In this document: in pieces, positions 22,827 to 48,034 of the stretch
How the letters are laid out: each line of letters starts with the position of its first letter
Numbering within the stretch: position 1 is the stretch's first letter
Source of the DNA: Streptococcus sp. oral taxon 431
Lineage (GTDB): Bacteria > Bacillota > Bacilli > Lactobacillales > Streptococcaceae
DNA length: 64,000 bases
Assembly: GCF_001553685.1 (NCBI RefSeq)
Contig: NZ_CP014264.1
Coordinates: 1,124,001 to 1,188,000 of the forward strand
Direction: 5' to 3'
Notes under the pieces: generated by a model
Seen by the model: only the letters and a program-made list of their open reading frames with translations
Told to the model about the DNA's origin: nothing
The model's database searches: none
Made by a program: the position numbers and the translations under genes

Positions 22827-23061
22827 AAAACTAAAAGTTTATGTACAATTGACTTAACGTGAGCTAAACTATTGATACAACTGAATTAGAAGCATAAAGT
22901 ACATTCTTTAAGGAGTGTACTTTATTTTTATTTTGTACATTATTTTGAAGTGTTATTTTGTATTTTTTCTAGTTCATAACATCATCTGATTTAAGGAATT
23001 GATTTGTACATTTTTACTCTAATAGGTGCAGAAGAAGTAGTGGTTCAATTGTACATTTTTT
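22827..23061 (+). repeat. Left-end repeat L1
   Basis: It begins AAAACTAAAAGTTTATGTAC and carries six GTACA/TGTAC motifs spaced along about 230 bp. It is near-identical to L2 at 25897-26132 (about a dozen mismatches and one indel by eye). The GTACA repeats could be arm-binding sites for the island recombinases. Confidence 0.8.
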
Positions 23062-23114
23062 GCTACTCATTTAAGGTCTTATTGATAGTAAGATATAGAT
23101 TTTTACTCGTGGTG

Positions 23115-23760
23115 CTAGTTAATCTCAAAGTATCTCAGATTATAAGTCAGTACAATTTGCTCCATTCTCAACTGCAATCCTGTTAAGCCTCTAGCTAGTG
23201 TTTGTTCGACATCAAAAAAAGCACAAAGTTCTGAAAATCGAGTTTCAATAGTCCGTCTCATAGCCATTAGTTTCCAATGATTATGTTGTTTAGCTCTTGC
23301 CATATTTTGACGTAAAGGCGTCCAAAGATGAGATGGTAACCTTTCTGTTTCAACTGTTCTCTGAGTTCATAGCTAAGATAAGCTAAATCAGCTAAAACAT
23401 AGGGTTGAGAACAATTTTCTAGTAAGTCATCAATTGCCCTAATATCATGTACTGAGGCAGGCGTTACAACATAATTCAGAATATAGCCTGATAGGGTGAC
23501 CAGCATATGTACTTTGAATCCATAGACCCAAAGGTGCTTAGAGGAATTGTAACCAATGTCGGCTAGTTCATTAAAAACATGTGCACTATGGTTACGGACT
23601 GGTTGACAAAGTGATAAGGGGAAACTATCTATGATGACAATGTTATTGGGAGAAATTTGAGTATTTATGGCTTGCCGAATAATTTGGACTAACCAAATCA
23701 ACTGCCTTGACCATCGATTAAACCGACTTCTTTTAAGGAGACACCCACAAGGATTCTTGT
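23115..23760 (-). pseudogene. IS982-family transposase relic
   Basis: Residues matching an IS982-type DDE transposase are readable on the minus strand: LLKRSRFNRW, IIDSFPLSLCQPVRNH (first Asp), PYVLADLAYLS (second Asp), then in another frame RRTIETRFSELCAFFDVEQ (the Glu) to the natural C terminus. The frame breaks at a 5-bp tandem duplication, AGATG-AGATG at 23326-23335. The N-terminal third is missing; beyond about 23760 the sequence is unrelated. The copy is dead. No terminal inverted repeats were identified. Confidence 0.85.
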
Positions 23761-23779
23761 TTAGAAGCACCGAATCAAT

Positions 23780-23855
23780 CAAGAAGGAGCATCCTGAGGT
23801 TCCGGCATTTGAAGAATATGATGAGCTGCTTGCAGAAATTAAAAAAAACCTATAA
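23780..23855 (+). pseudogene. C-terminal tail of an unidentified gene
   Basis: A short open frame on the plus strand ends KKEHPEVPAFEEYDELLAEIKK, NL, stop. It is followed by a good terminator at 23890, which suggests a real gene whose body was replaced by the IS982 relic. The family is not recognised. Confidence 0.35.
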
Positions 23856-23889
23856 TAAGGCATGAGATGACCCTCAAAGTCAGACTTTT

Positions 23890-23918
23890 ATCCCAGTGTT
23901 TTTCGCTGGGATTTTTTA
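23890..23918 (+). terminator. Intrinsic terminator of a lost plus-strand gene
   Basis: ATCCCAG (23890-23896) and CTGGGAT (23906-23912), then TTTTT. Confidence 0.7.
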
Positions 23919-23922: not shown

Positions 23923-24249
23923 CTATAATACCTTGTGCAAAATAGTCGTATATATCAAAATCAGAGTCACGTTACCTACTATTAGGCCGAAAGTCGCAAG
24001 TATTGTCTTTGATGTACCTGGCTTAAAATCTGCGCTAATTGAATATGGCCAAAAGCATATCATTGGGAAAACGGCTATTAACACGCATACATAGGTAGGA
24101 AAGTTTGTCCAAAGAAAGCGTGTCGTCTCTAACCAGTGCCCCCATGAAGGTATCATTATTTTGGTTATAGTGAAAAGTATGCATATAAGGTGGATCACTA
24201 GAAGATAAATAGCATACTTTGGCTTACTTAGTACTTTTTTCTTTTTCAT
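23923..24249 (-). CDS. Small membrane protein, unknown
   Basis: This 108-aa protein has three hydrophobic segments (residues 12-33, 50-70, 84-106) and a strongly basic N terminus (MKKKKVLSKPK). There is no recognisable family. It lies 27 nt downstream of the 337-aa membrane protein on the same strand, so the pair is likely co-transcribed. Confidence 0.6.
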   Translation of the reverse strand: MKKKKVLSKPKYAIYLLVIHLICILFTITKIMIPSWGHWLETTRFLWTNFPTYVCVLIAVFPMICFWPYSISADFKPGTSKTILATFGLIVGNVTLILIYTTILHKVL

Positions 24250-24276
24250 TTTGCCTAATTATCCCTGCAAATTCTT

Positions 24277-25290
24277 CTATCGCTCTGCTGCAATATTAGA
24301 ACTAAAATTAAAATTAACTATATCATTATTCGAATCAAGGTCTAAATTCATAAAATAATGATTCCAAAAGATTTCATTGTTACCTGCTCCCCACTGCACG
24401 CCATAATGACCCAAATATTCATCTCTTGGCTCGCTTGGAGTCAGCCATATTTTTTTCCCAAATACTTTCGTGAACTCGTTTTCGTCAAGCTTCTTTAGCA
24501 AATCTATACCATCTATATTATATGAAATTCCATATTTTGTGGCAACAGCTGTGCACTCAGAATCGAAGCAAACCTGCGTAACTACACAGTCCTTCAGCTC
24601 CGTACTCTTCCTCTTATCTCCGTAAATACCTATACATCCGAGAACTACATTCTTCTTTACAAGAAGATAGGTAGATCGCGTAATTGCTGAGTCATATGAC
24701 TTAAAGCCGTTTGGTATGCTAACCCCAGCTCCTTGGTATTTAGTATAGCTTCCCGTTGTCAAAAGCTCGTTATAATTAGGATAATCATGTCTACCATTTG
24801 ACACATAAATTTCAAACCCCTTGTCTATCAAATCCGAAATCTTAGTCTCTGTAAGATGAATTTCAGTTTCGTCAATTTTAAGTGGAGGTGCGTTATCAGG
24901 TAGACCTATAATTATATATACAAACATCAAAAACACGAATACCATAAGCACTGCAACGATACCTATCCAAGATTTCCCGGTTCTCCTTCGTGCATTGAAA
25001 AGCGACATTATAGAAGGCGTGATAATAGCAGCACCAATTGGTGCCGCCCCATGACGGAACATGCTCATGACCCTAAAGGCAATTACAGCGCTAATTAGTA
25101 TTAAAACTATGTGCACTGCATACTCTCCTACGCTTAGCTTACTCGTCCTAGTCTGATTATTGGCTGGGGCATCGTACACTGGAACACCGTTCTCAAAGGT
25201 GTTCTTCATTCTAAAACGCAGCCAAATCAATATTCCAATAAACACAATTGCCAAGAACACTAGCATTCCGATAAAAACTAATTTTTCCAT
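24277..25290 (-). CDS. Membrane protein with large C-terminal soluble domain, unknown
   Basis: This 337-aa protein has an N-terminal helix (residues 4-25), two more around 56-95, and a fourth at about 112-132. A roughly 200-residue soluble domain follows with no motif I know. Its base use is richer in C and in varied codons than the A/T-heavy neighbours, which suggests separate acquisition. It pairs with the 108-aa membrane protein downstream. The two are the only intact genes of island unit 1; a defence or surface role is possible but unsupported. Confidence 0.65.
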   Translation of the reverse strand: MEKLVFIGMLVFLAIVFIGILIWLRFRMKNTFENGVPVYDAPANNQTRTSKLSVGEYAVHIVLILISAVIAFRVMSMFRHGAAPIGAAIITPSIMSLFNARRRTGKSWIGIVAVLMVFVFLMFVYIIIGLPDNAPPLKIDETEIHLTETKISDLIDKGFEIYVSNGRHDYPNYNELLTTGSYTKYQGAGVSIPNGFKSYDSAITRSTYLLVKKNVVLGCIGIYGDKRKSTELKDCVVTQVCFDSECTAVATKYGISYNIDGIDLLKKLDENEFTKVFGKKIWLTPSEPRDEYLGHYGVQWGAGNNEIFWNHYFMNLDLDSNNDIVNFNFSSNIAAER

Positions 25291-25765
25291 CTGTAACCTT
25301 TTCTCAGACCTAATTATCGTCCATCAAAATTCATATCTAGTCTACCACATTTTGAAATTGTTTTACAATATTTACATACTTGTGCACGAATCAAAAATGT
25401 ATACAAGCTTTTCAGAGTATTTATTCTTTACACCTCTTTTCCGCTATGTTAAAATTGTATTAAGTTTAATACTTGTTTTATTCTAAACGTGCGCATCATT
25501 TTAGCGCAAAAAACAAATTTAATTCCGTTGTTTGAGTGGGATTATTTAAATAACCTTCTAATAGCAAGTCCAACTGAAATCACAGAGTTGAGTAATATGT
25601 CTGTCTGTATAGTGGATATGCTAGGAAAAACCAGATCATCGTTATAAAATTTAAGTTAAAGAAAGACTGACATACAGAAAGCGAAATGAAAAGGCATGTT
25701 CGATTTGCAAAGGTTTAAGAAGAAAACAGGAGCATTTTGTTAGATTAAAGATGTAATAGAATATT
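25291..25765. other. Gene-free stretch
   Basis: No convincing ORF, RNA gene or terminator. The segment is very A/T-rich and ends where repeat R1 begins. It may hold the divergent promoter for the 337-aa protein gene. Confidence 0.5.
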
Positions 25766-25864
25766 AAAATCAAACAAGCTAAAAACACTCTAAAGATCAT
25801 TAAATTTATATTAAAGTGTTTTTTATTGTCAAAATGTACATTTGAAAAATTTTTAGTTTTTTTT
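25766..25864 (+). repeat. Right-end repeat R1
   Basis: It starts AAAATCAAACAAGCTAAAAA and ends AAAATTTTTAGTTTTTTTTG. The same roughly 98 bp recur as R4 at 40036-40133. Its outer tip (TTTTTAGTTTT) is the inverted form of the L-end tip (AAAACTAAAA). L2 begins about 32 bp further on. Confidence 0.75.
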
Positions 25865-25896
25865 GGTTATATTTATAGTTAGTTAGGCAAGCCCAA

Positions 25897-26132
25897 AAAA
25901 CTAAAAGTTTATGTACAATTGACTTAACTAGAGCTAAACCATTGATACAACTGAATTAGAAGCATAAAGTACATTCTTTAAAAAGTGTACTTTATTTTTA
26001 TTTTGTACATTATTCTGGAGTGGTATTTTGTATGTTTTCTAGTTCATAACATCATCTGATTTAAGGGATTATTTTGTACATTTTTTACTCTAATAAGTGC
26101 AGAAGAAGTGGTGGTTCAATTGTACATTTTTT
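25897..26132 (+). repeat. Left-end repeat L2
   Basis: This is the near-identical copy of L1, starting AAAACTAAAAGTTTATGTAC and containing the same series of GTACA motifs. Similarity continues weakly to about 26180 (AAGATATAGATTTTTA). Confidence 0.8.
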
Positions 26133-26318: not shown

Positions 26319-27326
26319 ATGGCCGATAAATTTGGACAGTTTTTTAAAGATACACTAAAAGAAATTCTCGTAGAACATGTAAAAGAATTAAAAAATCAAT
26401 CTGAAATTGATAAATTTTATGAAAAATATGAAAAGGCTGATTTTTCAGGATTATATCTAGAAATGATTAATGACACTTCAAATCAAATGGTAAGAGATGC
26501 TAAGATGATAATGCATGAGAATACGTTACTGTTTAGAGGAGAGGAAACAGAAATAATTGCAAGAATAGAGCAAAAGTGGTCTAATGCGTTTGCTACATCT
26601 GAGACCATGTATATGATGGTTCTTGAATCTGTAAAAGATTATTCTGATTATGTAAATAAAATTGATAACAAGGAGAGAGAAAAATCTATTCATAAATACA
26701 CAGCCTTAAAATACATACACGGAAGAGGTCTACAACAATTTTTAGAGATAATCACTTTAATGAAAAATGGATTTGCTGATGGTGCGTATTCTAGATGGCG
26801 TTCACTTTACGAATTAAATATTATTGCGTCGTTTATTTCAGAATATGGAGAGGAAGTTGCTGAAGCTTATATTTCATCACATAATACAGAAGATCGTTAT
26901 GAATGGGCAAGAGCTTGTGGTGAATTTAGTCCTAAAAAGAGATATATAAGTTTTGACGATATCAGAAAAAAATCCAATTTCCCATCAGAATTATGGCAAC
27001 AACCATATCGAATCTCTAATGAAGTCACACATGCATCATCACAAGGCACATTTAATCGATTAGGTCTAATGGACGGGGAAGAGAAAATAAGTGTAGGGCA
27101 TACTGATTATGGACTAACAATACCTGGTGAACACTCTGCTATAACAATAGCGCAACTTACGGGGTTGCTTTTGATGGTATATCCATCTGGTGATTCTATA
27201 ATAGCTGCAAAAATGCTAAATAAGTGGATTGATGTGGTAAGAGAGCAATATTTTAAAACACATGACTATATTTTTCCTGATGAACCCAAATTATGGAATA
27301 ATGAAAAAAATTTAAGTCTAAGATAG
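26319..27326 (+). CDS. DUF5677-like protein, possible HEPN-type helical domain
   Basis: This 335-aa soluble, mostly helical protein contains GFADGAYSRWRSLYELNIIA (residues about 150-169), characteristic of DUF5677, and then RISNEVTH, an R-x6-H spacing of the kind seen in HEPN ribonucleases. The N-terminal 90 residues are charged helices. A/T-rich codon use fits the island. GGTAGGAG lies before the ATG. HEPN proteins are frequent toxin or anti-phage effectors, so a defence role is plausible, but the catalytic reading of R/H is inference. Confidence 0.72.
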   Translation: MADKFGQFFKDTLKEILVEHVKELKNQSEIDKFYEKYEKADFSGLYLEMINDTSNQMVRDAKMIMHENTLLFRGEETEIIARIEQKWSNAFATSETMYMMVLESVKDYSDYVNKIDNKEREKSIHKYTALKYIHGRGLQQFLEIITLMKNGFADGAYSRWRSLYELNIIASFISEYGEEVAEAYISSHNTEDRYEWARACGEFSPKKRYISFDDIRKKSNFPSELWQQPYRISNEVTHASSQGTFNRLGLMDGEEKISVGHTDYGLTIPGEHSAITIAQLTGLLLMVYPSGDSIIAAKMLNKWIDVVREQYFKTHDYIFPDEPKLWNNEKNLSLR

Positions 27327-27449: not shown

Positions 27450-27556
27450 AAAACTAAAAAATTTTGTACTTTTCCCGAGACAGTGGATAAACCCTTGATA
27501 CAACTGAGTTTAAGGAGTAATGTAGACTATTTGAAAAATGTACTTTATTTTATTAT
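27450..27556 (+). repeat. Diverged left-end repeat L3
   Basis: AAAACTAAAAAATTTTGTAC starts a roughly 105-bp stretch alignable with L2 (shared TTGATACAACTGA and AATGTACTTTATTTT) but with many changes. It sits between the DUF5677 and DUF3800 genes and is read as an older element end. Confidence 0.5.
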
Positions 27557-27809
27557 GTAAAATTGAAAAAGCTAGAATAACGTTCATCGTGGTATCTATA
27601 TTGTAGTCCATTAGGAGATTTTTTAATGTATATTTTAGAAGAAAGTTTGGTGAAGTTGATGAAGAGCAAAAGTACATTTTTAGGTATAGAAAAACAGACA
27701 CCGAAGTAAGATGTCTGTTCTCCAATCTATTTTAGATTATTGTTCTTAAAAATACATACTAATTCTTGAAGAATAATCCTTTGTAAGTCTTAGTTTTACT
27801 GGGGGTTCG

Positions 27810-27852: not shown

Positions 27853-28539
27853 ATGCTCAACTTATATTGTGATGAGTCTTGTCATTTGGAAAATGATGGT
27901 GAGAGTGTAATGTTAATAGGAGGGATTTCTTGTCCAGACTATGTAAGGAATATTGTCTATAAGGAGATAAAAGAAATAAAAAGAAAACACGGTATTTCTT
28001 CACGTTCTGAAATAAAGTGGAGGAAAGTTTCAAATTCTAAAATTACCTTTTATGAAGATCTTGTAAATTATTTTTTTGATAATGAGCATCTTAATTTTAG
28101 AGTAGTTATAATAGACAAAAATAAATTAAACCATAAGAAATATAATCAAACCCACGATGATTTTTACTATAAGCAGTACTTTTATTTAGTAAGAAAATTT
28201 CTCTTTGAGGATGATGTTAACGTTTTTATAGATATAAAAGACACAAATAGTATTTTAAAAGTTAACAAGTTAAAGAATATTCTTGAAAACTGGAAGCAGT
28301 CACCCAAACATATCAAAAATATTCAACAAATTCGCTCTCATGAAAACTCAATAATGCAATTAGCTGACCTATTGATAGGGGCAGTAGCTTATAAAAATAG
28401 GAGCTTTGAAAGTAGTTTAGCTAGAATCAGGCTAAGTAATTTAATCTCTAATAGAGCTAAGCATGAGTTAACAACGAATACAAAGTATAACGCAATAAAA
28501 TTCAATATTTTTAAAATGGAGTTAAGTGATGAGCAGTAA
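27853..28539 (+). CDS. DUF3800 protein (RNase H-fold, defence-associated)
   Basis: This 228-aa protein shows the DUF3800 pattern: LYCDES at the start, EIKWRKVS in the middle, FIDIKDT, and QLADLLIGAVAYK near the C terminus. The acidic residues at these places are those expected to bind metal in the RNase H-like fold. DUF3800 proteins are frequent in mobile elements and defence islands; their biochemical activity is mostly unproven. The next gene begins inside its last codons, so the two proteins are probably made together. It has its own extended -10 promoter and an AGGAG site 7 nt before the ATG. Confidence 0.85.
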   Translation: MLNLYCDESCHLENDGESVMLIGGISCPDYVRNIVYKEIKEIKRKHGISSRSEIKWRKVSNSKITFYEDLVNYFFDNEHLNFRVVIIDKNKLNHKKYNQTHDDFYYKQYFYLVRKFLFEDDVNVFIDIKDTNSILKVNKLKNILENWKQSPKHIKNIQQIRSHENSIMQLADLLIGAVAYKNRSFESSLARIRLSNLISNRAKHELTTNTKYNAIKFNIFKMELSDEQ

Positions 28540-29050
28540 CGTAACAGATTTTTGTCCTATCCTTCCTCCGAAGATAACACTTGATCAATTTAATGGTGAC
28601 TATGCTCTTTATGATGATTTTTTATATGAGAATGTATTTTTAGAGCAATTGTTCAACTTCAAGATAACTTTTAGAGGGAAATTTGTCGAGTTAAAGTCGT
28701 ATCCGTATTTTGAAGGTAAAGAAGATAGTTATTTTCATCTTACCTGTAAAAATTTTGATATAGATTCAGAAGAACGAGAACCTGATTTAAGAAGGAGCGA
28801 AAGATTATGTTGGTTAAGACCTGCAATAGAAACGGATCATAACAAGATTTGCAAACAAGATTGTTTCTTAATATATGAACGACCGTATAAAAAATCTAAT
28901 AGAATATTTTTATTAGATCCAGTAGATCGCTATTTTATTGTACTTGAAGAAAGACCTAGTTACTATTTATTGATAACAGCATTTTACATACACTATGATA
29001 ATGTACTTCGAAAGAAACTGAAAGAATACGATAAATATAAAACTAACTGA
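28529..29050 (+). CDS. Companion of DUF3800, possible barnase/RelE-like nuclease (PBECR type)
   Basis: This 173-aa protein starts at ATG 28529, with GGAG 7 nt upstream; a GTG at 28526 is less likely. It overlaps the DUF3800 gene by 11 nt. The C-terminal part, with RPYKKSNRIFLLDPVDRY followed by ERPSYYLLITAFYIHY, recalls the core of the phage barnase-EndoU-colicin E5/RelE-like nuclease families (PBECR), but I cannot confirm the catalytic residues. A toxin with DUF3800 as partner is one reading. No membrane segment or signal peptide. Confidence 0.65.
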   Translation: MSSNVTDFCPILPPKITLDQFNGDYALYDDFLYENVFLEQLFNFKITFRGKFVELKSYPYFEGKEDSYFHLTCKNFDIDSEEREPDLRRSERLCWLRPAIETDHNKICKQDCFLIYERPYKKSNRIFLLDPVDRYFIVLEERPSYYLLITAFYIHYDNVLRKKLKEYDKYKTN

Positions 29051-29596: not shown

Positions 29597-29642
29597 AACT
29601 ATATGATTTTAGTAAAGTATATTCTCACTAAAATTCAGGTTT

Positions 29643-29662
29643 AATAAATTTCCAGTTTTCAC
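29643..29662 (+). repeat. Right-end tip R3
   Basis: AATAAATTTCCAGTTTTCAC resembles the tips of R4 (AAATTTCCAGTTTT) and R5 (TTTTTTCCAGTT). L4 starts 40 bp further on, so this would be the right boundary of unit 2. Confidence 0.5.
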
Positions 29663-29701
29663 TTTGATAGGGTAGACTTTAGGATATTTTTGTTCCAAAA
29701 A

Positions 29702-29820
29702 AAAACTAAAAGTTTATGTACAATTGATTTAACTAGAGCTAAACCATTGATAAAACTGAATTAGAAGAATAAAGTGCACTCATTAAGTAGTGTACTTTAT
29801 TTTTGTTTTGTACATTTTTT
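29702..29820 (+). repeat. Left-end repeat L4 (short form)
   Basis: AAAACTAAAAGTTTATGTAC opens a copy of the first roughly 120 bp of L1/L2. It ends at a GTACATTTTTT and then joins GTTGATGGC, similar to the far end of L2, as if the middle 150 bp were deleted. Confidence 0.75.
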
Positions 29821-30056: not shown

Positions 30057-30686
30057 ATGGCAAGAAATAGAAACTCACATGAAACTAGACAAAAAATACT
30101 AGAGGTCTCTAAAAATTTATTTTTAGAAAAAGGATTTGATAATACGTCAATACAAGATATCATAGATGGGTTAGGTGGATTAACAAAAGGTGTTATCTAT
30201 CATCATTTTGAGTCTAAATACGATATACTGCAAACAATCATTAGCGAAAATAATCAAGAAATTTTAAATTATAATTGGAGAGGAAATACTGGGTTAGAAA
30301 AGATACAAAATTCTTTGATGGACTCTTTCTCTAATTTTGAACACCAAAGGCTCGTTTACTCTGCCTCAATCATGCTTAGAAGTCCACGTTTGTTAGGAGA
30401 GCAGTATCTAGGTCTATTTTCTGATTTTTTACCCGAAATTAGAGAAAAAGTTTACGAAGGAGTTGAAGATGGGTCTATTAAAACAGAATATCCAGAAGAG
30501 CTAGCAGATTTAATTGTTTTAACTCTAAATATTTGGATTGGTTTTCAAATTTCCGTTTTTTCATTAGTAGAATTAAAGCGCAAAATGAATTTCATTAAAC
30601 TTACTTTTGAAGGTCTAGGGGTACAGTTAATTTCTGATGAAATGATGGAGGTGATTTTCAACTTATTTGATCACTTAAAAAAATAG
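30057..30686 (+). CDS. TetR-family repressor of the ABC exporter cassette
   Basis: This 209-aa protein has the TetR helix-turn-helix near the N terminus (TSIQDIIDGLGGLTKGVIYHHF, split as TSIQDIIDGLG and GLTKGVIYHHF, residues 30-51) and a ligand-binding all-helical C domain. The start is an ATG after AAAGGGACTGG. Three copies of a CATACC...GGTATG-like palindrome occur, one over its own promoter and two ahead of the ABC operon at 30965, so it very likely represses both itself and the transporters until an inducer binds. The inducer is probably a transported substrate. Confidence 0.9.
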   Translation: MARNRNSHETRQKILEVSKNLFLEKGFDNTSIQDIIDGLGGLTKGVIYHHFESKYDILQTIISENNQEILNYNWRGNTGLEKIQNSLMDSFSNFEHQRLVYSASIMLRSPRLLGEQYLGLFSDFLPEIREKVYEGVEDGSIKTEYPEELADLIVLTLNIWIGFQISVFSLVELKRKMNFIKLTFEGLGVQLISDEMMEVIFNLFDHLKK

Positions 30687-30779
30687 TAAATAAGTAGTCG
30701 CATGACATTCTTGTTAATACTAATTTCTATTTATGTATTATCAATTGAATAAACTATATTACATAATTTATAATTTAAA

Positions 30780-30804
30780 AATAACACACTTAAAGTGTGT
30801 TATT
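30780..30804. terminator. Palindrome after tetR, likely terminator
   Basis: AATAACACACTT-A-AAGTGTGTTATT is a perfect inverted repeat flanked by A and T runs. It could end the tetR transcript. Confidence 0.5.
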
Positions 30805-30814
30805 AAAAATCCAC

Positions 30815-30866
30815 TATACATACCGTAGGTATGTTTATTTTTCAGTGTAGCCATACCGATAGTATG
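30815..30866 (+). promoter_or_regulatory. ABC operon operators O2 and O3 with possible -10
   Basis: CATACCGTAGGTATG (30819-30833) and CATACCGATAGTATG (30852-30866) match O1. Their centres are 33 bp apart, three helical turns. TATACA (30815-30820) overlaps O2 and may be the -10. Confidence 0.75.
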
Positions 30867-30964
30867 TATGGTGTAATTGTCTGAAAAATAAGCTAATTTT
30901 TAAATATTTGTTGAGATTAGTTTGAATAGTTTACTCTTTATTTACACTTTGGAGGAAAGAATCT

Positions 30965-31705
30965 ATGTTATCGCTTATTAAAATTGAATTAAATAAAATT
31001 TCTAAACCTAAATTATTTTTAGCCTGGTTGTGTACTATTTTTATAGTGTTAGGCATTACAGCAATCATTATTATGGGTTTAGGTACTGACAATAAACTAG
31101 GAGAATTCGCTGGTCAGGATTCTAATGTTATTAGAGTTACTGGTAAATGGGAAGGCTGGGCAATTGTAGCTTCATTGTTTTCATCTTTATTTACAAAAGC
31201 AGCATTTTTGATTTTCGAATCTTATTTATTATCTACGATTATCATTGATGAATTTAAACGAAGAACAATTTTTCAGTTGTTTTCTTACCCTATTTCTAAA
31301 ATAAAGTTACTATGGGGAAAAATTCTTTTAGTCATCCTAATATCATTTATTGCCCATTTTTCTGCACATTTAGTTATTCAAATATTCATTAGATTCATGG
31401 CTGTTGTAACTGAATCTAGTTGTATCCCTGTAGCTAATCAATTAATTAACTTAGCTGGAATTACGTTTGGAACAGTACTAATAGGGTTATTACCATTTGT
31501 TTTAGGTATGATTAAGCATTCAACAGCTATAACAATGCTTACAGGACTTGGTTTAGCAGCATTACTTTCGAATGCCAGTCCAGGAAGTTTATCTAATAAT
31601 ATTGCTGATAACTTATTCTTTTTGATATTTGCAAGTTTCATAAGTTTAATGATTACTTCATTTTCAATTTATAATATTTCAAGACAAGATATTAGTATCA
31701 AGTAG
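30965..31705 (+). CDS. ABC-2 type permease
   Basis: This 246-aa protein has six hydrophobic segments: about residues 17-38, 74-96, 114-135, 155-182, 188-205 and 217-236. It resembles permeases of lantibiotic-immunity and BcrB type. It is preceded by GGAGGAAAG. The ATPase at 31841 lies 136 bp downstream on the same strand, followed 2 bp later by an exporter, so the three form a TetR-regulated operon. Likely role: removing a membrane-active compound. The substrate is not readable. Confidence 0.82.
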   Translation: MLSLIKIELNKISKPKLFLAWLCTIFIVLGITAIIIMGLGTDNKLGEFAGQDSNVIRVTGKWEGWAIVASLFSSLFTKAAFLIFESYLLSTIIIDEFKRRTIFQLFSYPISKIKLLWGKILLVILISFIAHFSAHLVIQIFIRFMAVVTESSCIPVANQLINLAGITFGTVLIGLLPFVLGMIKHSTAITMLTGLGLAALLSNASPGSLSNNIADNLFFLIFASFISLMITSFSIYNISRQDISIK

Positions 31706-31840
31706 CATAGCTGAATTTAATTGAAGGAATGTGATAATTCCTTGATGATTTCTATAAAAAAAGAGGCTGTATAAGTTGGTATTTATGCTCCAGGAGAAAA
31801 ATTCTTTCATTTAAAGCTGGATATAGAAAGAGAGATAGAA

Positions 31841-32578
31841 ATGAGAAATATTGTTGAAATAAAAGAAGTTTTTAAAACAATTGATAAAGAAGAAATTTTA
31901 AGTGGTATCAACCTTCAAATTGCTGAAGGAGAAATCTATGGTTTTTTAGGACCGAACGGTGCTGGAAAAACAACGTTAATGAAATGTATGTTAACCTTAT
32001 CAACAATTACATCAGGTAGTATTGAAATTTTTGGGAAAAATCTACAAGAACACAGAGAAGAAATCCTAAGTCAGATTGGAAGTATTATTGAATCACCAAT
32101 TTTTTATGATAATTGCACTGCAAAAGAAATTTTGGAAATTCACGCTCAATATATGGGGAAAAATATTATTGAATCAGATATAAAAAAAGCCTTAAGAATG
32201 GTCGGCTTAAAAAATACGACTAAAAAAGTAAAAGATTTTTCGTTAGGAATGAGGCAAAGGCTTGGTTTAGCTCGTGCCTTTCTAACAAAACCTAAATTGT
32301 TAATTTTAGATGAGCCAATCAATGGTTTAGATCCAATAGGGATTCAAGAAATTCGAAATCTTTTGTTGTCGCTTTCTAAGGAGCATGGAATTACTATTCT
32401 AATATCGAGTCATATATTATCGGAAATTTCACAGATAGCAGATAAAATTGGCTTTATCAAAAATGGAGAAATTGTAGAACAGGTTTCTATGAAAGAGATT
32501 AGGAGAGAGAATATTGACTTAGAAGAATATTTTATGTCACATTTTCTAAATGAAATTAAGAATTATGAGGTAGATTAA
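31841..32578 (+). CDS. ABC transporter ATPase (BcrA/LanF-like)
   Basis: This 245-aa ABC ATPase has Walker A GPNGAGKTT, signature SLGMRQRLG, Walker B LLILDEPINGLDP and switch His ISSHIL. It lacks the long C-terminal extension of the ATPase encoded at 2347-3255 but shares its overall pattern. It should energise the permease at 30965. The stop is 2 nt before the start of the next gene. Confidence 0.9.
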   Translation: MRNIVEIKEVFKTIDKEEILSGINLQIAEGEIYGFLGPNGAGKTTLMKCMLTLSTITSGSIEIFGKNLQEHREEILSQIGSIIESPIFYDNCTAKEILEIHAQYMGKNIIESDIKKALRMVGLKNTTKKVKDFSLGMRQRLGLARAFLTKPKLLILDEPINGLDPIGIQEIRNLLLSLSKEHGITILISSHILSEISQIADKIGFIKNGEIVEQVSMKEIRRENIDLEEYFMSHFLNEIKNYEVD

Positions 32579-32580
32579 GG

Positions 32581-34263
32581 ATGAAACAATTGATAAAGAA
32601 CCATCAGAAGGCTTTTTATGCTTTCATGATATTTAATATACTGGTCCCTTTAACTAATATTGCTTTTGCTTATTCTATTAAAGGTATTATTGATAGTGGC
32701 ATGTCCCAAAATAAAGAAGCCTTAACTCAAGCGGTACTAGTAGGAGCTACTGTTATTTTCATCTATGCAGCACTCAACTTTATATCTCTTCGATTGAGAA
32801 ATAAACTTGTTAGGCAAATCATGTCAAGATACAAAAACAAGGTGTTCCAATCTATTTTAGATAGGGATTATAGAGACTTTTCTAAAGAAAAATCAGGGAA
32901 ATTTATTTCCGTATTAACCGAAAATATGAAGAAAATTGAGCAAGATTATCTATACCAGTATTTTAATATTTCAAAAAACCTTTCCTTAATGATTTTTTCA
33001 CTTCTAACTATGTTTATAGGTAATTGGTTTTTGACCTTATTAGTTATCATTGCTAGCATCATTCCGATGATGATTTCAGGATTTATTGGACAAAAATCAG
33101 CCTCTTTACAAAATAGAGCTATGGTTGCCGATCAGAAGTATTTAGCTAAGGTTAAAGATATTTTAGCAGGATTTCTTGTTATTAAAAGTTTTAATGTGAA
33201 AGATGCTATCTGTGAGGATTATAGTCATGAAAGTGAAAAATTTGATGAAATAAATTTTATAAAAGGGAAATTTGACGTTTTAACTAATGTTACTTCACAG
33301 CTTTCAGGGATGATTGTTTTTTTGGTAGCCTTTGGTGGAGGGATGTATCTCGTATTTAATAGCTCTACCACAATTGGGAGTGTAACAGCTATTGTTCAAC
33401 TGGTCAATTTTGTAGTAATGCCACTGAATGAAGTTGGAATGGGAATAAGTAAATTTCGTGAAGGTCAGGCAACACTAGATGCATTTGAGGTAAAAGATGT
33501 AACTGAGCTTCAGACTGGTGAAACAAAAGAATATTTCGATGATGTTATTTCTTTTTCAAATATAGACTTTTCTTACCCTAATACTAAAGAAAAAATTTTT
33601 AACCATTTATCTTTGAAGATTCAAAAAGGAGAAAAAATTGCAATTGTTGGAATGTCAGGGAGTGGGAAATCAACTTTGCTCAATCTATTACTGCGTTTTT
33701 ACGATGTAACAAGTGGGCACATCTCCATTGATAATATAGATTTGCAAGCTATTTCAGCAGAGAGCCTTTATAACTTAATGACAATTGTTCAACAAGACGT
33801 TTATATCTTTGATGATACTTTAAGAGCAAATATTACTCTTAATCAATCCTTCACTGATGAGGAAATAAAGCAAGCTGTACAGCAGTCGGGTTTAGAAAGT
33901 TATGTTTTAGAAAATGAATCTGGTCTACAAACTTTATGTGGAGAGAATGGCTCAAATCTATCTGGCGGACAAAAACAAAGAGTTAGTATTGCGCGTGCCT
34001 TGATTCGAAAAACACCAATCTTATTATTGGATGAGGCTACTTCATCTTTGGATAATCAAGTAACTACTGAAATTGAAAGTTCAATCTTGGATATTCAAAA
34101 TTTGACTGCACTTGTAGTAACCCACAAGTTGAATGAGAACATTTTGAAAAAATACGATAGAATTCTCTTTATGAAAGATGGCGTTATTGTTGAAGATGGT
34201 TCTTTCAGTGATTTGATGGATAGGAGAGGTGAGTTTTATAAGTTGTTTGAGTTGAGTGTGTAA
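32581..34263 (+). CDS. ABC exporter, fused membrane and ATPase domains
   Basis: This 560-aa half-transporter has six membrane helices in residues 1-290 and an ABC domain in 325-560: Walker A GMSGSGKST, signature LSGGQKQR, Walker B ILLLDEATSSLD, H loop VVTHKL. It dimerises to export drugs, peptides or lipids. There is no peptidase or extra N-terminal domain, so it is not a classic bacteriocin processor. It is the last gene of the TetR-controlled operon. Pairing of an ABC-2 system with a type IV exporter under one TetR repressor suggests a broad resistance cassette. Confidence 0.9.
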   Translation: MKQLIKNHQKAFYAFMIFNILVPLTNIAFAYSIKGIIDSGMSQNKEALTQAVLVGATVIFIYAALNFISLRLRNKLVRQIMSRYKNKVFQSILDRDYRDFSKEKSGKFISVLTENMKKIEQDYLYQYFNISKNLSLMIFSLLTMFIGNWFLTLLVIIASIIPMMISGFIGQKSASLQNRAMVADQKYLAKVKDILAGFLVIKSFNVKDAICEDYSHESEKFDEINFIKGKFDVLTNVTSQLSGMIVFLVAFGGGMYLVFNSSTTIGSVTAIVQLVNFVVMPLNEVGMGISKFREGQATLDAFEVKDVTELQTGETKEYFDDVISFSNIDFSYPNTKEKIFNHLSLKIQKGEKIAIVGMSGSGKSTLLNLLLRFYDVTSGHISIDNIDLQAISAESLYNLMTIVQQDVYIFDDTLRANITLNQSFTDEEIKQAVQQSGLESYVLENESGLQTLCGENGSNLSGGQKQRVSIARALIRKTPILLLDEATSSLDNQVTTEIESSILDIQNLTALVVTHKLNENILKKYDRILFMKDGVIVEDGSFSDLMDRRGEFYKLFELSV

Positions 34264-36665: not shown

Positions 36666-36685
36666 ACAATATTGGAGGAATATTT

Positions 36686-36706: not shown

Positions 36707-36723
36707 CTCTTCCTGCTAAAATC

Positions 36724-36739
36724 GCAGGGTTTTCCCTGC
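36724..36739 (+). terminator. msr(D) leader hairpin
   Basis: GCAGGG-TTTT-CCCTGC, with a further GCAT...ATGC pair beyond it. It lies between msrDL and msr(D) and is the probable attenuator structure. There is no strong T run right after this stem. Confidence 0.6.
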
Positions 36740-36784
36740 ATACAAGCAAATGAAAGCATGCGATTATAGACAGGAGGAAATGTT

Positions 36785-38365: not shown

Positions 38366-38665
38366 CTATTTTTCTGCTAAATATATTGTAGTTTTCTTAT
38401 ATGTATAATGATAGATTAGCGGATTCTCATCTACGGTACTTACTTCAAATATGAAGAAGTGATCGCGGTTATCTCTGGACTTTTCCTTATTGAGGACAAA
38501 GTAATTCTTACGTGAAGTCGCCATTGTTTTTAGGATATCATCAGTTAGGAAGGTCAATGGAATATTCATGTTAGAGTAGCGGTAGAAGTCACGTTCAAAA
38601 TCTTGGTAGCTCTCGCTATAATAGTCCATTTGTAGGTGATTACGCTGAAACTCAAGCTGATTCAT
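38366..38665 (-). CDS. DUF5960-like protein of the MEGA tail
   Basis: This 99-aa soluble protein starts at ATG 38665, which has an excellent GAGGAGGT 7 nt upstream; an ATG eight codons earlier has none. It overlaps the end of the YolD-like gene by 14 nt. Proteins like this accompany UmuC-type polymerases in streptococcal elements, but the role is unknown. It is the last gene of the minus-strand block, ending about 120 bp from msr(D). Confidence 0.75.
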   Translation of the reverse strand: MNQLEFQRNHLQMDYYSESYQDFERDFYRYSNMNIPLTFLTDDILKTMATSRKNYFVLNKEKSRDNRDHFFIFEVSTVDENPLIYHYTYKKTTIYLAEK

Positions 38666-39020
38666 AGAGCACCTCCTCGACAAGTTCAATACTAATAATG
38701 TCTTTTAATTTCAAATTGATGTGACCTGTTGTAGTTTTTATCAAAATGAAATCTTTGGTCAGACTTGGTATTGTTCCAGTGTAGGAAACACGCTTGTTTT
38801 TTTCAATCACTTGAATGCGTGTGCGTAGCTGCCCGGCGTATACTTGACTGAGGAGTAATAATTTCTTCTCTAGTGATAAGTCAGACATGTACGTTACTTT
38901 GTTTGTATCATCAGAGAGTGCTGATGCATGTTCAGATAGGAAAAAGCCCATCCATTTTTGCATCTTTGTATCCTGGTACTCTCTTGCTGATTGAAATGGT
39001 AAATATGAACGGTCAATCAT
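38652..39020 (-). CDS. YolD-like protein
   Basis: This 122-aa protein begins MIDRSYLPFQSAREYQDTKM, as the YolD-like proteins that travel with Y-family polymerases in Tn5252-like elements do. The C-terminal half is a small beta domain (VSYTGTIPSLTKDFILIK). The function is unknown; a helper in SOS-type repair is suggested by its constant neighbours. In this copy the polymerase it would serve is broken. It overlaps the DUF5960 gene. Confidence 0.72.
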   Translation of the reverse strand: MIDRSYLPFQSAREYQDTKMQKWMGFFLSEHASALSDDTNKVTYMSDLSLEKKLLLLSQVYAGQLRTRIQVIEKNKRVSYTGTIPSLTKDFILIKTTTGHINLKLKDIISIELVEEVLYESA

Positions 39021-39032
39021 ATCAAATCCTTT

Positions 39033-39368
39033 CTATGCAGAGGCAAGGGTATTTTTATCAAATTGAATCGTAAAACCTTGAATTCCCCCACCTGTGTAAC
39101 ATTCTTTAAAGCGATTGATTACCTCAGTATAGATTATCACAGATGAGCTTGTTGGCTTAATGCTAAATGTAAATTCCAATGGTAATCGGTTTTCAGATTT
39201 AGCATGTACTAGTCGTATCGATATTTCAGTTGTTTTGAGTTTTCTCTGACGAAGTTTTGAAGTTGCTGTTTCAACGATTCCATGTAAAAATCTTTCAAGC
39301 ATTTCAATATCATTACATCCTTTGCTACGGATTTCTGAAAATTGTACTGTATTTTTTTCTTGTTTCAT
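39033..39368 (-). CDS. Conserved MEGA-tail protein, unknown
   Basis: This 111-aa soluble, basic protein shares ATGA with the stop of the umuC relic (39365-39368), so it was translationally coupled to the polymerase. No motif known to me. A beta-rich middle (EISIRLVHAKSENRLPLE) is the clearest feature. It may no longer be well translated, since its upstream partner is decayed. Confidence 0.6.
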   Translation of the reverse strand: MKQEKNTVQFSEIRSKGCNDIEMLERFLHGIVETATSKLRQRKLKTTEISIRLVHAKSENRLPLEFTFSIKPTSSSVIIYTEVINRFKECYTGGGIQGFTIQFDKNTLASA

Positions 39369-39795
39369 TTTAATCCCTCCAATCCACCCGCGGAATGACC
39401 ACCGATAAGTTTACTGCGTTCAATATTTCTGGAACCTTCAGTTAGGACGGTTCCTTTTTGTATGGCTAAAAAACCAAACTGTTCTCTGACAACATCAATA
39501 GCTGTCTGAAGTCTATTATCTTTTTCAATTTGTTCTACATCATCAAAGAGTGATAGTAGAGTATAGCTTTCATCTACGAAGCCACTATAAGATACACCAA
39601 TTTGTCTCACTGCACCAGAGGTGTATTTTTTCGGAATAATACAAGTACATGACTCACCATTGTTTTGGGGAGATTTGCGGGTTCAATTTTATTCTGAGCA
39701 TTTATAGATTTTTTCATCTCAGTCCTAGAATAGCCAATATGAATAGAAACGACAGTAGTCAATACTAGGGCTACTGTTCCGTTCCACAGTATCAT
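39365..39795 (-). pseudogene. UmuC-like Y-family polymerase fragment, frameshifted
   Basis: Two minus-strand frames read as the last roughly 145 residues of a UmuC-type polymerase. The first has HIGYSRTEMKKSINAQNKIE. After a frameshift in an A run near 39628 (CGAAAAAATAC), the second has VRQIGVSYSGFVDES and ends GGHSAGGLEGLK. The N-terminal two thirds, including the catalytic palm, are gone. A dead copy of the SOS-polymerase gene often carried by MEGA. Confidence 0.82.
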
Positions 39796-40035: not shown

Positions 40036-40133
40036 AAAATCAAATAAGCTAAAAACGCTCTAAAATCATTAAATTGATATAAAAATGTTTTTTATTGTCA
40101 AAATATACAATTAAAAAAATTTCCAGTTTTTTT
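40036..40133 (+). repeat. Right-end repeat R4
   Basis: AAAATCAAATAAGCTAAAAA to AAATTTCCAGTTTTTTT. It is homologous along its length to R1 (25766-25864). It closes the unit that starts at L4 and holds both resistance cassettes. Confidence 0.75.
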
Positions 40134-45300: not shown

Positions 45301-46006
45301 AAAGAAATCAATTTCTGATGATGAATTGATTCATTTGTTTGAACAGTATTTAATTTCCCAGTGTTCCTGTGATTTAAGCTTGGTAAAAATCCCTCGGTTT
45401 GGTGACTATGTTAGGAATAATGGCTATCAAAATGTTGCGGATACAACCATTAGACGTAATAAAAGATTCAGGGATTTTTTAAAAGAAAGTGAAATTAAAT
45501 ACCAAGATGAAAATTATGAAGCTGTAATTACTTATAAGACCATAGATCCTGACAATTTTATGGCAAAAAATCGTGCTCCAGGTGCTATGAAAAGAGCATT
45601 GGTGGAAATTAGCCAATACTACAAGAAAATAGCAAACATTGCGGCCAGCTATAAACAAGAAGCAGATAAGTTACGTAGTTTAAATTCTGAACTACAGTCA
45701 ACTAATGAAGATTTAAAACAGAAGCTACAAAGAGAAAATGAGTTAAGTGATGAGAATCAAAAACTATTACAAATAATCAAAACAAGTGTCTATCCAGAAA
45801 TTGCGAATGAGCTTTTAAAAGAAGAAGGATTGTTAAAATATTCTCAAAAGGTTATCAGTGAGGATTTCCTAGCAGACAATATCATCACCGCTGATTCAGA
45901 AATAGATTTTCATTCTGGTGGTCTTATTGAACAAGAAAATCCTCAAAAATCAACTAAAGTGGTTTCTATTAAAAACTTACTAGACAGCAAAACTAATTAT
46001 AAATGA
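45293..46006 (+). CDS. TnpC/CDS4-like coiled-coil protein
   Basis: This 237-aa protein overlaps the IntB-like gene by 8 nt. The N terminus looks like a small DNA-binding helical domain (PRFGDYVRNNGYQNVADTTI, about 34-53). Residues 100-165 form a coiled coil (EISQYYKKIANIAASYKQEA and on). The C terminus is disordered and polar. Size, position and architecture match TnpC of Tn554 or the fourth gene of SE-type elements, which affects orientation or efficiency of transposition. Assigned by context and shape. Confidence 0.72.
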   Translation: MARKKSISDDELIHLFEQYLISQCSCDLSLVKIPRFGDYVRNNGYQNVADTTIRRNKRFRDFLKESEIKYQDENYEAVITYKTIDPDNFMAKNRAPGAMKRALVEISQYYKKIANIAASYKQEADKLRSLNSELQSTNEDLKQKLQRENELSDENQKLLQIIKTSVYPEIANELLKEEGLLKYSQKVISEDFLADNIITADSEIDFHSGGLIEQENPQKSTKVVSIKNLLDSKTNYK

Positions 46007-46014
46007 GGAAAGAA

Positions 46015-47862
46015 ATGAACAAGAAAGTTAAAGATAATCCAGCTATTTACATGTACTGGGATCAAAAACGAAATGTTCTTGACCCCAAAAAATTATCGTC
46101 AAATAGTTTAAAATATGCCTATTGGTCTTGCCCTTATTGTCAACACCATTGGGAAGCGAAAATCATTGATGTGCAGCTTGACAGTTATGAATATCTTAGG
46201 TGTTGCCCCCATTGTGGATTAGGTGAACGTTCCATTGATGAAAATGAGAGCGTCCTTCAGGTTTATCCCGATTTCAGAAATTATATAAACTACAGCATTG
46301 AGCGAGATGAAGAATTAGATGAGAAACTTCTTACCTTGCCGTTCAATAGTAAAAGAAAATTCAATTTTAAATGTCCGACGTGTCAATTAAGTTGGAAAGA
46401 TTCTGCGACAAATAAGAGGTTATTTCAACTAACAAGTGGGGATTTATTTCATTTTGGCTGCAATGAAACTTCCTATCATTGCGATTACAAATCAATTTAT
46501 CCAAATTTAGCTAAAATCTATAGCGAACATTTAAACAAATTTAAATTTAACGAACTGAAGCTGAGTTACAATATAACAGTACCTATCCATTGGGAATGTG
46601 ATAAGTGTCATTGCAAATTTGAATTATCTATTGATAGATTATTGAACCGAATTAAAAGAAGTGGTCATTACTGTTTGGAGTGTCATTCTTCATTTGAAGA
46701 GTTATTGGATAAAGATTTTGATGTTTCTCCTCTATCTTTTTTAAATTCTTCCATGCTCAAGGAGTGGTCTAAAAGGAACAATAATACACCTAATCAAGTT
46801 GATGTATTATCTAATGTTCATGTGTTATGGGAATGTACGAATTGTCACGGAGAGTATTCATGCTCACTATTTGAAAAAACAGATAGGTCTTGTCCATTTT
46901 GTTCAAATAGAGAAAAACTTCAGGATTTTAATACACTAAATGAAACACATCCCTATTTGAGGGAATTTTGGGACCTCAGTAATGAAAGGGATTTTTCCGA
47001 ATATTGGTTTAAGTCAAATAATGTAGTTAGTTGGGTTTGTCCTTGTTGTAAAATCAACTTTCAATGTAGCCCAGCCGAAATGATCAGTCGAACCGATTTA
47101 GAAAATCAAAACTTTCAAACATGTCCCAATCAATGTGACTGGAGGACTGAGGTATTTAAAAATAATATTTTCCTTAAAGAACCAAAACTCATCAAAGAAT
47201 GGAGCGATAAAAATAAAATTCCTATTCATTTATCTCAGACAACAATAGAAACGAAAAAATATTGGTGGGATTGTTCAAAGTGTCATGGGACATATTTATG
47301 TTCTATCCCAATTCGAAGAGAAGTTTCTCAGTGTTGTCCTTTCTGTAACAACGATAAGCCTCTGAATGGGTATAATACATTTGATTATTTGTACCCTGAA
47401 CTAGCAAAATTGTGGGCACCAAATAATAAAGTCTCAATAGATAGTTTTGTTCCATTATTAACTGAAAAAAGGTTTTATTTATGGCGCTGCAAAGAATGTA
47501 ACTTCGAATTTCATGAGCGCTTCAGCATTATATTAAATAAGTATTTAAATTCCGAGACAAAAGATCTTAAAGAAATGTGTCCATTTTGTGCAGAATTAAA
47601 AGAAAGACAAGATAATATCTCATTTGAAGATTTGATGAACGAGTGGGACTATCTTAACAATCTTATTCTAGGGGATCCAGAAAGAATCCCAAATAATACG
47701 CAATTAAGATTTTGGTGGATTTGTAAGAATAATCCAGAGCATCGTTATAGAATGGCTATTGTAGATAAGATTGCAAATGTAAAACGATCTATCGAGCCAT
47801 GCATATTTTGTAAAGGGCGTAGACGAAAAAGAGAACATTTTGTTCCTTATAGGAAAATTTAA
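46015..47862 (+). CDS. Multi zinc-ribbon protein (DUF4379-like repeats)
   Basis: I start this 615-aa protein at ATG 46015, which has GAGGAAAG upstream; ATG 46003 overlaps the previous stop but lacks a ribosome site. It is built of repeated modules with the pattern W-x-C-x2-C...C-P-x-C: YWSCPYCQHHWEA, NFKCPTCQLSWKD, HWECDKCHCKFEL, LWECTNCHGEYSC, SWVCPCCKINFQC, WWDCSKCHGTYLC, LWRCKECNFEFHE. Each resembles the probable zinc-ribbon domain DUF4379. No nuclease domain follows, unlike many relatives. It may bind element ends or target DNA. It is the last gene of the recombinase operon. Confidence 0.8.
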   Translation: MNKKVKDNPAIYMYWDQKRNVLDPKKLSSNSLKYAYWSCPYCQHHWEAKIIDVQLDSYEYLRCCPHCGLGERSIDENESVLQVYPDFRNYINYSIERDEELDEKLLTLPFNSKRKFNFKCPTCQLSWKDSATNKRLFQLTSGDLFHFGCNETSYHCDYKSIYPNLAKIYSEHLNKFKFNELKLSYNITVPIHWECDKCHCKFELSIDRLLNRIKRSGHYCLECHSSFEELLDKDFDVSPLSFLNSSMLKEWSKRNNNTPNQVDVLSNVHVLWECTNCHGEYSCSLFEKTDRSCPFCSNREKLQDFNTLNETHPYLREFWDLSNERDFSEYWFKSNNVVSWVCPCCKINFQCSPAEMISRTDLENQNFQTCPNQCDWRTEVFKNNIFLKEPKLIKEWSDKNKIPIHLSQTTIETKKYWWDCSKCHGTYLCSIPIRREVSQCCPFCNNDKPLNGYNTFDYLYPELAKLWAPNNKVSIDSFVPLLTEKRFYLWRCKECNFEFHERFSIILNKYLNSETKDLKEMCPFCAELKERQDNISFEDLMNEWDYLNNLILGDPERIPNNTQLRFWWICKNNPEHRYRMAIVDKIANVKRSIEPCIFCKGRRRKREHFVPYRKI

Positions 47863-47892
47863 AAAACAGGTTCAAATTTGAACTTGTTTTTT
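47861..47892 (+). terminator. Terminator of the recombinase operon
   Basis: AAAAAACAGGTTCAAA and TTTGAACTTGTTTTTT are complementary, directly after the stop codon. Confidence 0.88.
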
Positions 47893-47906
47893 ATCATAGA
47901 TTTTTA

Positions 47907-48034
47907 TAAAGTACATTATTTTAAAAGATTGTATTTTTAGTTTTCAAGTAGATAGTGTACAGAATTTTAGTATGCGAAAGATTTAGTTTTCACGGGAATA
48001 AAGTACATTATTTCGAGAAAAATTTTTTCCAGTT
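47907..48034 (+). repeat. Right-end region R5 of the island
   Basis: Three GTACA-type motifs (47911, 47956, 48003), including GTACATTATTTT, which also occurs in L1. It ends AAATTTTTTCCAGTT, like R3 and R4. The dif site starts about 24 bp beyond. Confidence 0.65.

Follow-up and report, generated by a model that had tools for sequence, protein, structure and literature searches.

Genomic islands with three integrases (GInt) carry the genes ginABCD (Bardaji 2017, PMC5385486), and strand-biased circularizing integrative elements (SE) carry the genes intA-tfp-intB-srap, according to the passages of that report drawn on here (PMC10214605). For GInt, examples from Firmicutes were reported in Table S3, and no streptococcus is named in the main text (PMC5385486). 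The subject of the present paper is a window of 64,000 nucleotides from Streptococcus sp. oral taxon 431 (NZ_CP014264.1, positions 1,124,001 to 1,188,000; a genome of 2.18 Mb in one contig), in which about 25 kb between a ClC gene (21056-22606) and xerS are occupied by related elements with ends spanning 22827-48035. Between these elements and xerS lies dif, the site where streptococci separate joined chromosomes. With a probability of roughly three in four, the region is a tandem array of streptococcal elements of the GInt or SE kind, inserted at positions set by dif and including passengers derived by deletion, which probably move in trans. The likeness to GInt and SE is one of architecture, judged from published descriptions.

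Genomes are designated G and further DNA stretches or loci L, each followed by three digits, and the window is WIN; L1-L4 and R1-R5 are the left and right ends in the window. For the distribution, the DNA upstream of xerS was compared in a sample of 127 genomes. Eight of these loci (L205-L212) were taken in owing to matches to the left end, and the remaining 119 are mostly from the genomes with the closest XerS and were not drawn at random; the counts do not include L109, L124, L213, or the off-dif loci L125-L144. The expression used for the right tip overlooks degenerate tips (e.g., in L092, L106, and L201), so that all right-tip counts are lower bounds, and many stretches are short (0.85-9.9 kb), so that a left end or a gin gene not seen in them may sit outside.

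Ends, units, and recombination module

The tips of the elements are imperfect inverted repeats (AAAACTAAAAGTTT against ...AATTTTTGGTTA and AATTTCCAGTTA). Among the left ends, all four of which were confirmed (Table 1), L1 and L2 are 189-nt copies with 94% identity, and L4 agrees with this end to 68% over all 189 nt and to 90% over the first 119 nt. The left tip AAAACTAAAAGTTTATGTACAATTG (25 bases, at most 3 mismatches) was identified in 47 of 197 Streptococcus genomes with a total of 67 copies, and the reversed control pattern in none of the 197. In many other genomes, the right end carries boxes like AATTTTTAGTTTTCAC, after which AATAAAGTACAT is found, and its tip is composed of A's, T's, and GTTA.

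An earlier note on this DNA had proposed that left and right ends alternate along the 25 kb and divide it into about four units, L1-R1, L2-R3, L4-R4, and a recombinase unit ending at R5, with imperfect inverted repeats as tips and with recombinases in the last unit only. The inverted tips were borne out, and the recombinase genes are found at 40511-46006 and in no other unit. The ends L1 to L4, R1, R3, and R5 also stand, but R4 as a unit boundary does not. A sequence of the R4 type lies at a near-constant distance before ginA in 8 of the 12 recombinase loci compared in this region (WIN, L065, L066, L075, L077, L085, L091, and L093), a divergent gene read as a regulator takes this position in L105, L107, and L119, and L106 has neither. 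Because R4 shares nearly the same spacing before ginA in eight loci, it is a relic inside one element, and this comparison of the regions upstream of ginA rules it out as a boundary. The supposed L4-R4 unit and the separate recombinase unit are therefore a single 18.3-kb element, L4-R5. The proposed L2-R3 unit is actually two, one starting at L2, the right end of which has been lost, and L3-R3.

The module of L4-R5 consists of four overlapping or near-abutting genes coding for proteins of 422, 616, 556, and 237 amino acids (A to D, Table 1). For protein C, a sub-threshold integrase match (E 0.023) was obtained over residues 361-403, the conserved residues given in Table 1 are kept among six relatives, and the protein is homologous to annotated integrases of Bacillota plasmids. 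A Paenibacillus plasmid carries homologues of A, B, and C in the same order (E 7e-10, 1e-20, and 6e-26, respectively), with a counterpart of D that is alike in position and size only. Protein B is read as a recombinase fold by its motif and by synteny. No Pfam match was identified for B, and no NCBIfam model matched either of B and C up to E 10; when their profiles were compared with that of A, there was no signal, the alignments being too shallow, and a sequence search of PDB with the profiles of A, B, and C gave no match. In the phage records searched, ginB was not found. An identity with the gamma-mobile-trio (GMT) system was considered and rejected, the weak match to GmtY being confined to ginA. 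Among the named matches listed for B and C (120 rows of 1740 and 426), most are called hypothetical, and for this reason routine annotation would overlook the family. On a Cytobacillus plasmid (L224:2606-11000), a related B-C-D part adjoins mercury-resistance genes, so that the module type extends beyond streptococci.

Insertion at set distances from dif

Set distances from dif, the main regularity of the array, are not mentioned in the earlier note. Counted from the final base of the tip motif, the distance to dif was determined for 54 right tips at 50 loci. Four narrow bins, drawn after the data had been seen, hold 51 of the 54 tips: 20-23 bp (17 tips, class 20), 37-41 bp (22 tips, class 40), 48-51 bp (6 tips, class 50), and 56-59 bp (6 tips); single tips lie at 31, 66, and 71 bp. 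The number of distinct positions taken is 20, compared to a minimum of 26 in 20,000 uniform draws over 15-75 bp, and the largest pile at one position contains 15 tips, compared to at most 8 in 20,000 such draws, in statistics that count related loci singly and so overstate independence. When only tips with distinct 14-nt downstream sequences were kept, 52 remained and the pattern was unchanged. In a Rayleigh test for a helical period, the signal was strongest at 9.5-10 bp among the five periods tried; since four occupied bins can mimic a period, set positions are claimed here, and not a proven pitch.

The mark provided by dif works from both sides, at least once: in G053 (L144, outside the 127), a right tip lies 22 bp to the left of dif and a reversed tip 32 bp to its right. 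In this genome, one element stands in reverse orientation between dif and xerS.

Left junctions were mapped by aligning the left flanks of L to relatives without the element. They were located at -13 (L066, L079, and L115), at about -33 (L095, L100, and L190, with L086 and L107 at -32), and at -43 (L1 of the window and L071). For L066, L079, L115, and L095, the right-tip distance of 20 or 40 minus the left junction gives 7 bp. Direct repeats of 6 and 7 bp are present at L067 and L072, and in G182 ACTATA flanks L2...R5 on both sides. For L147, with a right tip at 66 and a left junction at -59 to -62, the agreement with a 6-7-bp exchange is rough, and L074 (right tip 58, left -57 on L084) agrees only when a 6-nt lineage difference in length is allowed. 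The spacers within the window are 27 nt for R1-L2 (40 minus 13) and 6 nt for R3-L4 (20 minus 13 gives 7). These values point to an exchange of 6-7 bp, which is the size of a coupling sequence, at several junctions.

The set distances could instead be those of inherited, sequence-specific attachment sites near dif, with no ruler involved, and homologous recombination during natural transformation would then spread the finished arrays. This explanation is unlikely, although the target does show some conservation. Conservation is fair in the 16 bp next to dif (CCCTATAAC). In class-40 loci, 8 of 40 columns (-10, -12, -16, -20, -22, -25, -27, and -40) exceed the unoccupied loci in conservation, at a level met by at most 10 of 1000 random sets of unoccupied sites. 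All 22 class-40 tips and all 6 class-50 tips are directly followed by C or T. Since 7 of the 22 class-40 loci are near relatives, both the column and the first-base conservation are inflated. A weak sequence preference at the target is possible, and the stricter proposal of no motif at all near the crossover was not fully borne out, with some columns between dif and the crossover being more conserved in occupied sites. However, the columns at the crossover itself (-33 to -39) show no such raised conservation in class-40 loci, and the tips at 37-41 bp recur on nine flank groups at a cut of 60% identity over 20 nt (n=22, largest group 7). In class 20, the 13 bases directly preceding dif are different at each of the 17 loci. 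Blocks do spread, as long parts of the array are common to three genomes with 96.7-99.98% identity; yet the 7 bp to the right of R5 are different in the window, G028, and G182, and the left flanks of the three shared arrays are unrelated, as is expected of separate site-specific insertions.

Occurrence of the units in other genomes

In the 197 Streptococcus genomes, ginB was identified in 14. In 12 of these, the gene shares a contig with xerS and lies no more than about 9 kb upstream of it; for G169, a different contig carries the first part of the gene. Of the remaining two, G182 has an array that is split across contigs, and in G011 only a fragment adjoins xerS. A search with C in 395 genomes of the order gave a match in 12, 11 of which are Streptococcus.

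A right tip within 80 nt of dif was identified at 50 of the 127 loci, or at 44 of 119 without the eight loci chosen by their left end. At 12 of the 50, gin genes are present in the fetched stretch; at the other 38 none are seen, and none of the genomes of these 38 loci is among the 14 that are positive for ginB. The L...R family, which the earlier note had suggested looking for without recombinases in other streptococci, is present at dif in dozens of further Streptococcus genomes, mostly with no recombinase gene. The proposal in that note of tandem accretion beside dif by units with shared ends is supported, since the cargo or the ends of each unit also occur separately elsewhere. Relatives of the unit 1 genes lie beside dif at ten loci (L067, L069, L071, L072, L080, L082, L083, L087, L093, and L099), nine of them without gin. 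Relatives of the DUF5677 gene of unit 2 are present beside dif at L181, L195, and L212 and also to the left of L2 in G182. In L079, a short element of about 340 bp consists solely of ends of the L3/R3 type with no evident cargo and stands alone at dif, and the TetR/ABC cargo of L4-R5 was identified without gin in L103. L-R-L arrays are present in at least five other genomes (G097/L131, G103/L066, G188/L082, G050/L083, and G028/L227). The relatives with an empty site that had been called for were also identified (L073, L097, L098, and L101), with the ClC stop 263-285 bp from dif.

In several gin-less units, remnants of the zinc-ribbon gene were identified near R (e.g., in L067, L071, L072, L080, L082, L083, and L087), which suggests that passengers arise by internal deletion. 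Unit 1 of the window looks like such a deletion derivative, given the decayed zinc-ribbon C-terminus that it carries besides an insertion sequence (IS) gene and two genes without a known function. The zinc-ribbon protein may have a role of its own. In L088 (G086), a long zinc-ribbon gene is present between L and R with no gin gene; at the same locus, an older right tip persists as a scar 20 bp from dif.

The part from L2 to R5 probably sits as a block in three genomes. G028 is 98.5% identical to the window over 19.7 kb (28539-48200), with a further match at L2; the intervening 2.4 kb are outside the fetched DNA, and the distance from L2 to L4 is equal in both, 3805 bp. G182 is 99.98% identical over 16.4 kb (27512-43865) and 96.7% identical over the final 4.1 kb, and a stretch of 217 bp beginning with L2 agrees to 100%; these matches lie on three contigs with linkage inferred. 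The similarity of G182 begins at L2, and in G028 the alignment continues for about 38 nt to the left of L2, across a right tip that belongs to a different neighbour. This neighbour in G028 is a unit of 389 bp, and its own left flank was matched by eye to L097 at the native position -33. On the adjacent contig of G182, C24 (L137:24-1165), another DUF5677 gene (91% to that of the window) and an intact right tip are present, so that two DUF5677 units seem to stand in tandem there. Either site-specific insertion using L2 and R5 or recombination at those ends would have spread the block.

These comparisons bear on a further explanation, in which the 25 kb are one compound island and the internal copies of L and R are duplications or decayed leftovers. 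The stretch from L2 to R5 that is common to three genomes would fit it, as would the decay of R3 and R4 and the lack of R2. However, it is rather improbable for the array as a whole, as relatives of the genes of unit 1 (ten genomes, nine gin-less) and of unit 2 (three), ends of the unit 3 type (L079), and the tetR-ABC cargo without gin (L103) all occur at dif apart from the array. The entry of all 25 kb as one piece, which the earlier note had set against accretion, is refuted for unit 1 by the different units left of L2 in G028 and G182 and may hold for L2-R5. Least probable is that XerS itself moves the units in the manner of IMEX elements, with ends that mimic dif and are inserted by the host recombinase: the left tip does resemble dif at 13 of 17 positions and 38 of 50 right-tip loci are without gin genes, but dif is intact and single in the genome of the window with no hybrid dif, which rules this out as the main explanation, the crossovers lie 13-60 bp outside dif, and wherever ginB was identified (14 genomes), xerS adjoins the module.

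Several observations weigh against an array of dif-positioned insertions, in addition to the conserved target columns and first bases given above. The similarity between tip and dif is marginal (in the best of six comparisons, 17 of 2000 shuffles reach the local score), and the structure predictions for B and C are poor, with a mean predicted local distance difference test (pLDDT) score of 46 and 52. Of the 67 copies of L, 8 are located away from dif (3 more are unplaced), and for five of the 8 both ends are in the stretch and no dif-like sequence is near; sites other than dif are therefore usable. At L100, L190, L181, L103, and L212, the left junction is nearer to dif than the right-tip distance less 7 bp would place it, so that about 10-19 bp of flank are duplicated (the junctions of L103 and L212 were read by eye), which cannot be explained save by recombination between arrays or by an unknown step. 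The junctions of L181 (-22) and L119 (-30 or -41) are outside all main classes. The tandem spacers of about 0 nt in L082 and L083 do not fit, those of 17 nt in L131 and 18 nt in L137 require a mixed pair of classes, and unit 2, being without a right end, allows no spacer fit.

One of the off-dif sites is common to G094, G097, G169, and G170 (L127, L130, L133, and L135), with the same left flank in all four and the same right flank in the three that have the right end in the stretch; no dif-like sequence is near. The insertion in L135 precedes a gene read from its translation as HMG-CoA-synthase-like.

The positions of all features are listed in Table 1. The cargo of L4-R5 includes a MEGA-like mef(A)/msr(D) pair. 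Inside the gin element, these two genes adjoin a UmuC-like remnant, and this part is 99.98% identical in G182. A Pfam scan of 20 proteins from the array identified no relaxase or mating-pair families at E 0.001.

Table 1. Features of the array beside dif, with positions in the window
Feature	Position	Strand	Remark
L1, left end of unit 1	22827..23015	+	Junction corresponds to -43 from dif in empty-site relatives (L098, L101: 1 mismatch in 22 flanking bases)
DDE transposase (IS) gene in unit 1, probably a remnant	23267..23863	-	PF13612, PF01609
Unit 1 cargo, 108-aa small protein and 337-aa protein of unknown function	23923..25290	-	Relatives beside dif in ten other genomes
Decayed zinc-ribbon C-terminus, unit 1 near R1	25613..25741	+	46% over 43 aa, E 4e-8
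R1, right end of unit 1	25793..25869	+	Inner box and tip ...TTTTGGTTA; then 27 nt, then L2
L2, left end of unit 2	25897..26085	+	Left limit of the stretch common with G182 and, neighbouring right tip aside, with G028
DUF5677 protein, unit 2 cargo	26319..27326	+	Pfam; unit lacks a recognisable right end
L3, left end of unit 3	27450..27560	+	Second, divergent end subtype; 72% match at 1151450; end type of L079
Unit 3 cargo, DUF3800 protein and partner	27853..29050	+	PADLOC candidate defence pair PDC-M04A/B
R3, right end of unit 3	29609..29695	+	Degenerate tip ATATTTTTGTTC; then 6 nt, then L4
L4, left end of recombinase-bearing element	29702..29820	+	
L4-R5 cargo, TetR regulator and three ABC transporter genes	30057..34263	+	Relatives in G090 (L103), located between L and dif with no recombinase gene
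L4-R5 cargo, mef(A) and msr(D) macrolide efflux pair	35448..38248	+	
L4-R5 cargo, DUF5960 protein and short genes	38366..39610	-	One with UmuC-like (IMS_C) C-terminus
R4, internal right-end relic upstream of ginA	40062..40133	+	Inner box only; no unit boundary
ginA-like tyrosine recombinase (A), 422 aa	40511..41779	+	XerA 1e-8; phage integrase family 1.7e-9
ginB/tfp-like protein (B), 616 aa	41783..43633	+	Read as tyrosine-recombinase fold, incomplete active-site motif
ginC/intB-like large tyrosine recombinase (C), 556 aa	43630..45300	+	R223, R368-H369, H391, Y400 conserved
ginD/srap-like small protein (D), 237 aa	45293..46006	+	Weak coiled-coil-type matches; label from position and size only
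Treble-clef zinc-ribbon protein, 619 aa	46003..47862	+	Relative follows ginD in other gin loci reaching that far
R5, right end of L4-R5	47906..48035	+	Repeat boxes with AAAGTACAT, tip ...TTTTTTCCAGTTA; 21 bp from dif
dif_SL	48057..48087	+	Sole copy in the whole genome at up to 3 mismatches
xerS	48139..49209	+	356-aa query matches 197 of 197 genomes

Proposed mechanism and comparison with known systems

In the proposed mechanism, the autonomous element L4-R5 would supply the four proteins of its module (two tyrosine recombinases, their partner with a recombinase fold, and the small protein), which would act on ends formed by the core tips as an imperfect inverted repeat and by GTACAT-type boxes further in. 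A putative circle, in which R and L are joined by a spacer, would be exchanged into the DNA beside dif, the 6-7 bp of the target going to the left of L and those of the donor staying to the right of R, as described for SEs. The exchange would take place at few set distances, mainly -20/-13 and -40/-33, on flanks of many sequences, with dif, either bare or XerS-bound, as the presumed positioning mark. Each later unit would enter between the last right tip and dif, so that the newest unit would be nearest to dif and the leftmost the oldest. Elements without the module but with both ends would persist, probably being moved in trans.

More tentatively, and at somewhat less than even odds, dif may serve as a molecular ruler. 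The recombinase complex would dock on dif or on XerS-dif, in a synaptic complex in which XerS may take part, and would cut to its left or right at distances in phase with the helix, while hardly reading the sequence at the site. In this form, dif would be a genus-wide landing platform for successive autonomous elements and their passengers, comparable to attI of integrons.

If the proposed mechanism is true, dif would be a growth point for accessory genes in streptococci, with a cargo ranging from a macrolide-efflux pair and ABC transporters to a candidate defence pair and many unknown genes. Tyrosine recombinases normally read a core sequence, and the system described here would choose its target largely by the distance from a landmark. 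This would also explain why recombinase-less units repeatedly landed at one place.

Among the matches listed in a literature search, with subscription journals mostly outside its scope, no report on recombinase-trio elements beside dif in streptococci was identified, and the passages available from PMC5357621, PMC9765430, PMC4701971, and PMC9345347 describe no such streptococcal dif elements.

Like GInt, the streptococcal element carries an operon for three recombinase-type proteins and a small protein together with variable cargo, and shares with it a strong site preference and, at several junctions, probably a staggered exchange of about 6 nt (PMC5385486). In GInt, however, the gin operon is at the 5' end with the cargo after ginD, whereas here the cargo is located between L and ginA with the operon at the right end, only the zinc-ribbon gene following ginD. 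Unlike in GInt, the target is a position relative to dif, and arrays of operon-less units are formed. GInt is flanked by imperfect direct repeats of 10-17 nt; in the streptococcal elements, 6-7-bp coupling sequences were identified at several junctions and duplications of about 10-19 bp at five others.

For SEs, the likeness includes the order of a recombinase, a fold partner with an incomplete motif, a large recombinase, and a small protein, the overlapping or abutting reading frames, and the imperfect inverted-repeat tips, which are 13-19 bp in SEs (PMC10214605). The 6-bp footprint of SEs also resembles the 6-7 bp observed here at several, but not all, junctions (PMC10214605). However, SEs were reported only in Gammaproteobacteria, with neither dif targeting nor a ladder of distances in the passages used (PMC10214605). 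With the Tn554 family (TnpA, TnpB, and TnpC), the streptococcal elements share large tyrosine recombinases, imperfect inverted ends, a 6-bp footprint, and, among the 20 proteins scanned, the lack of an evident mobilisation system, but their module has four genes with an extra 616-aa protein, whereas the three-gene tnpABC has no second protein of this kind (PMC10214605). IMEX elements, which use the host Xer at dif, also land in the chromosome dimer resolution region; in contrast to them, with their crossover in dif and a dif-like core, the crossovers here are outside dif, no hybrid dif is seen, and the elements have a module of their own (PMC5357621).

The site-specific tandem build-up of autonomous and deleted elements is shared with the integrative and conjugative elements (ICE) and cis-mobilizable elements (CIME) of S. 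thermophilus. Tandem accretion of ICE and CIME in this species was reportedly described by Pavlovic in 2004, for relatives of conjugative elements at a gene end. The array beside dif is different in being formed by recombinase-trio elements at set distances from dif, and Tn554 uses another target site. The element type itself is already known; insertion measured from dif and arrays of passengers are new to us.

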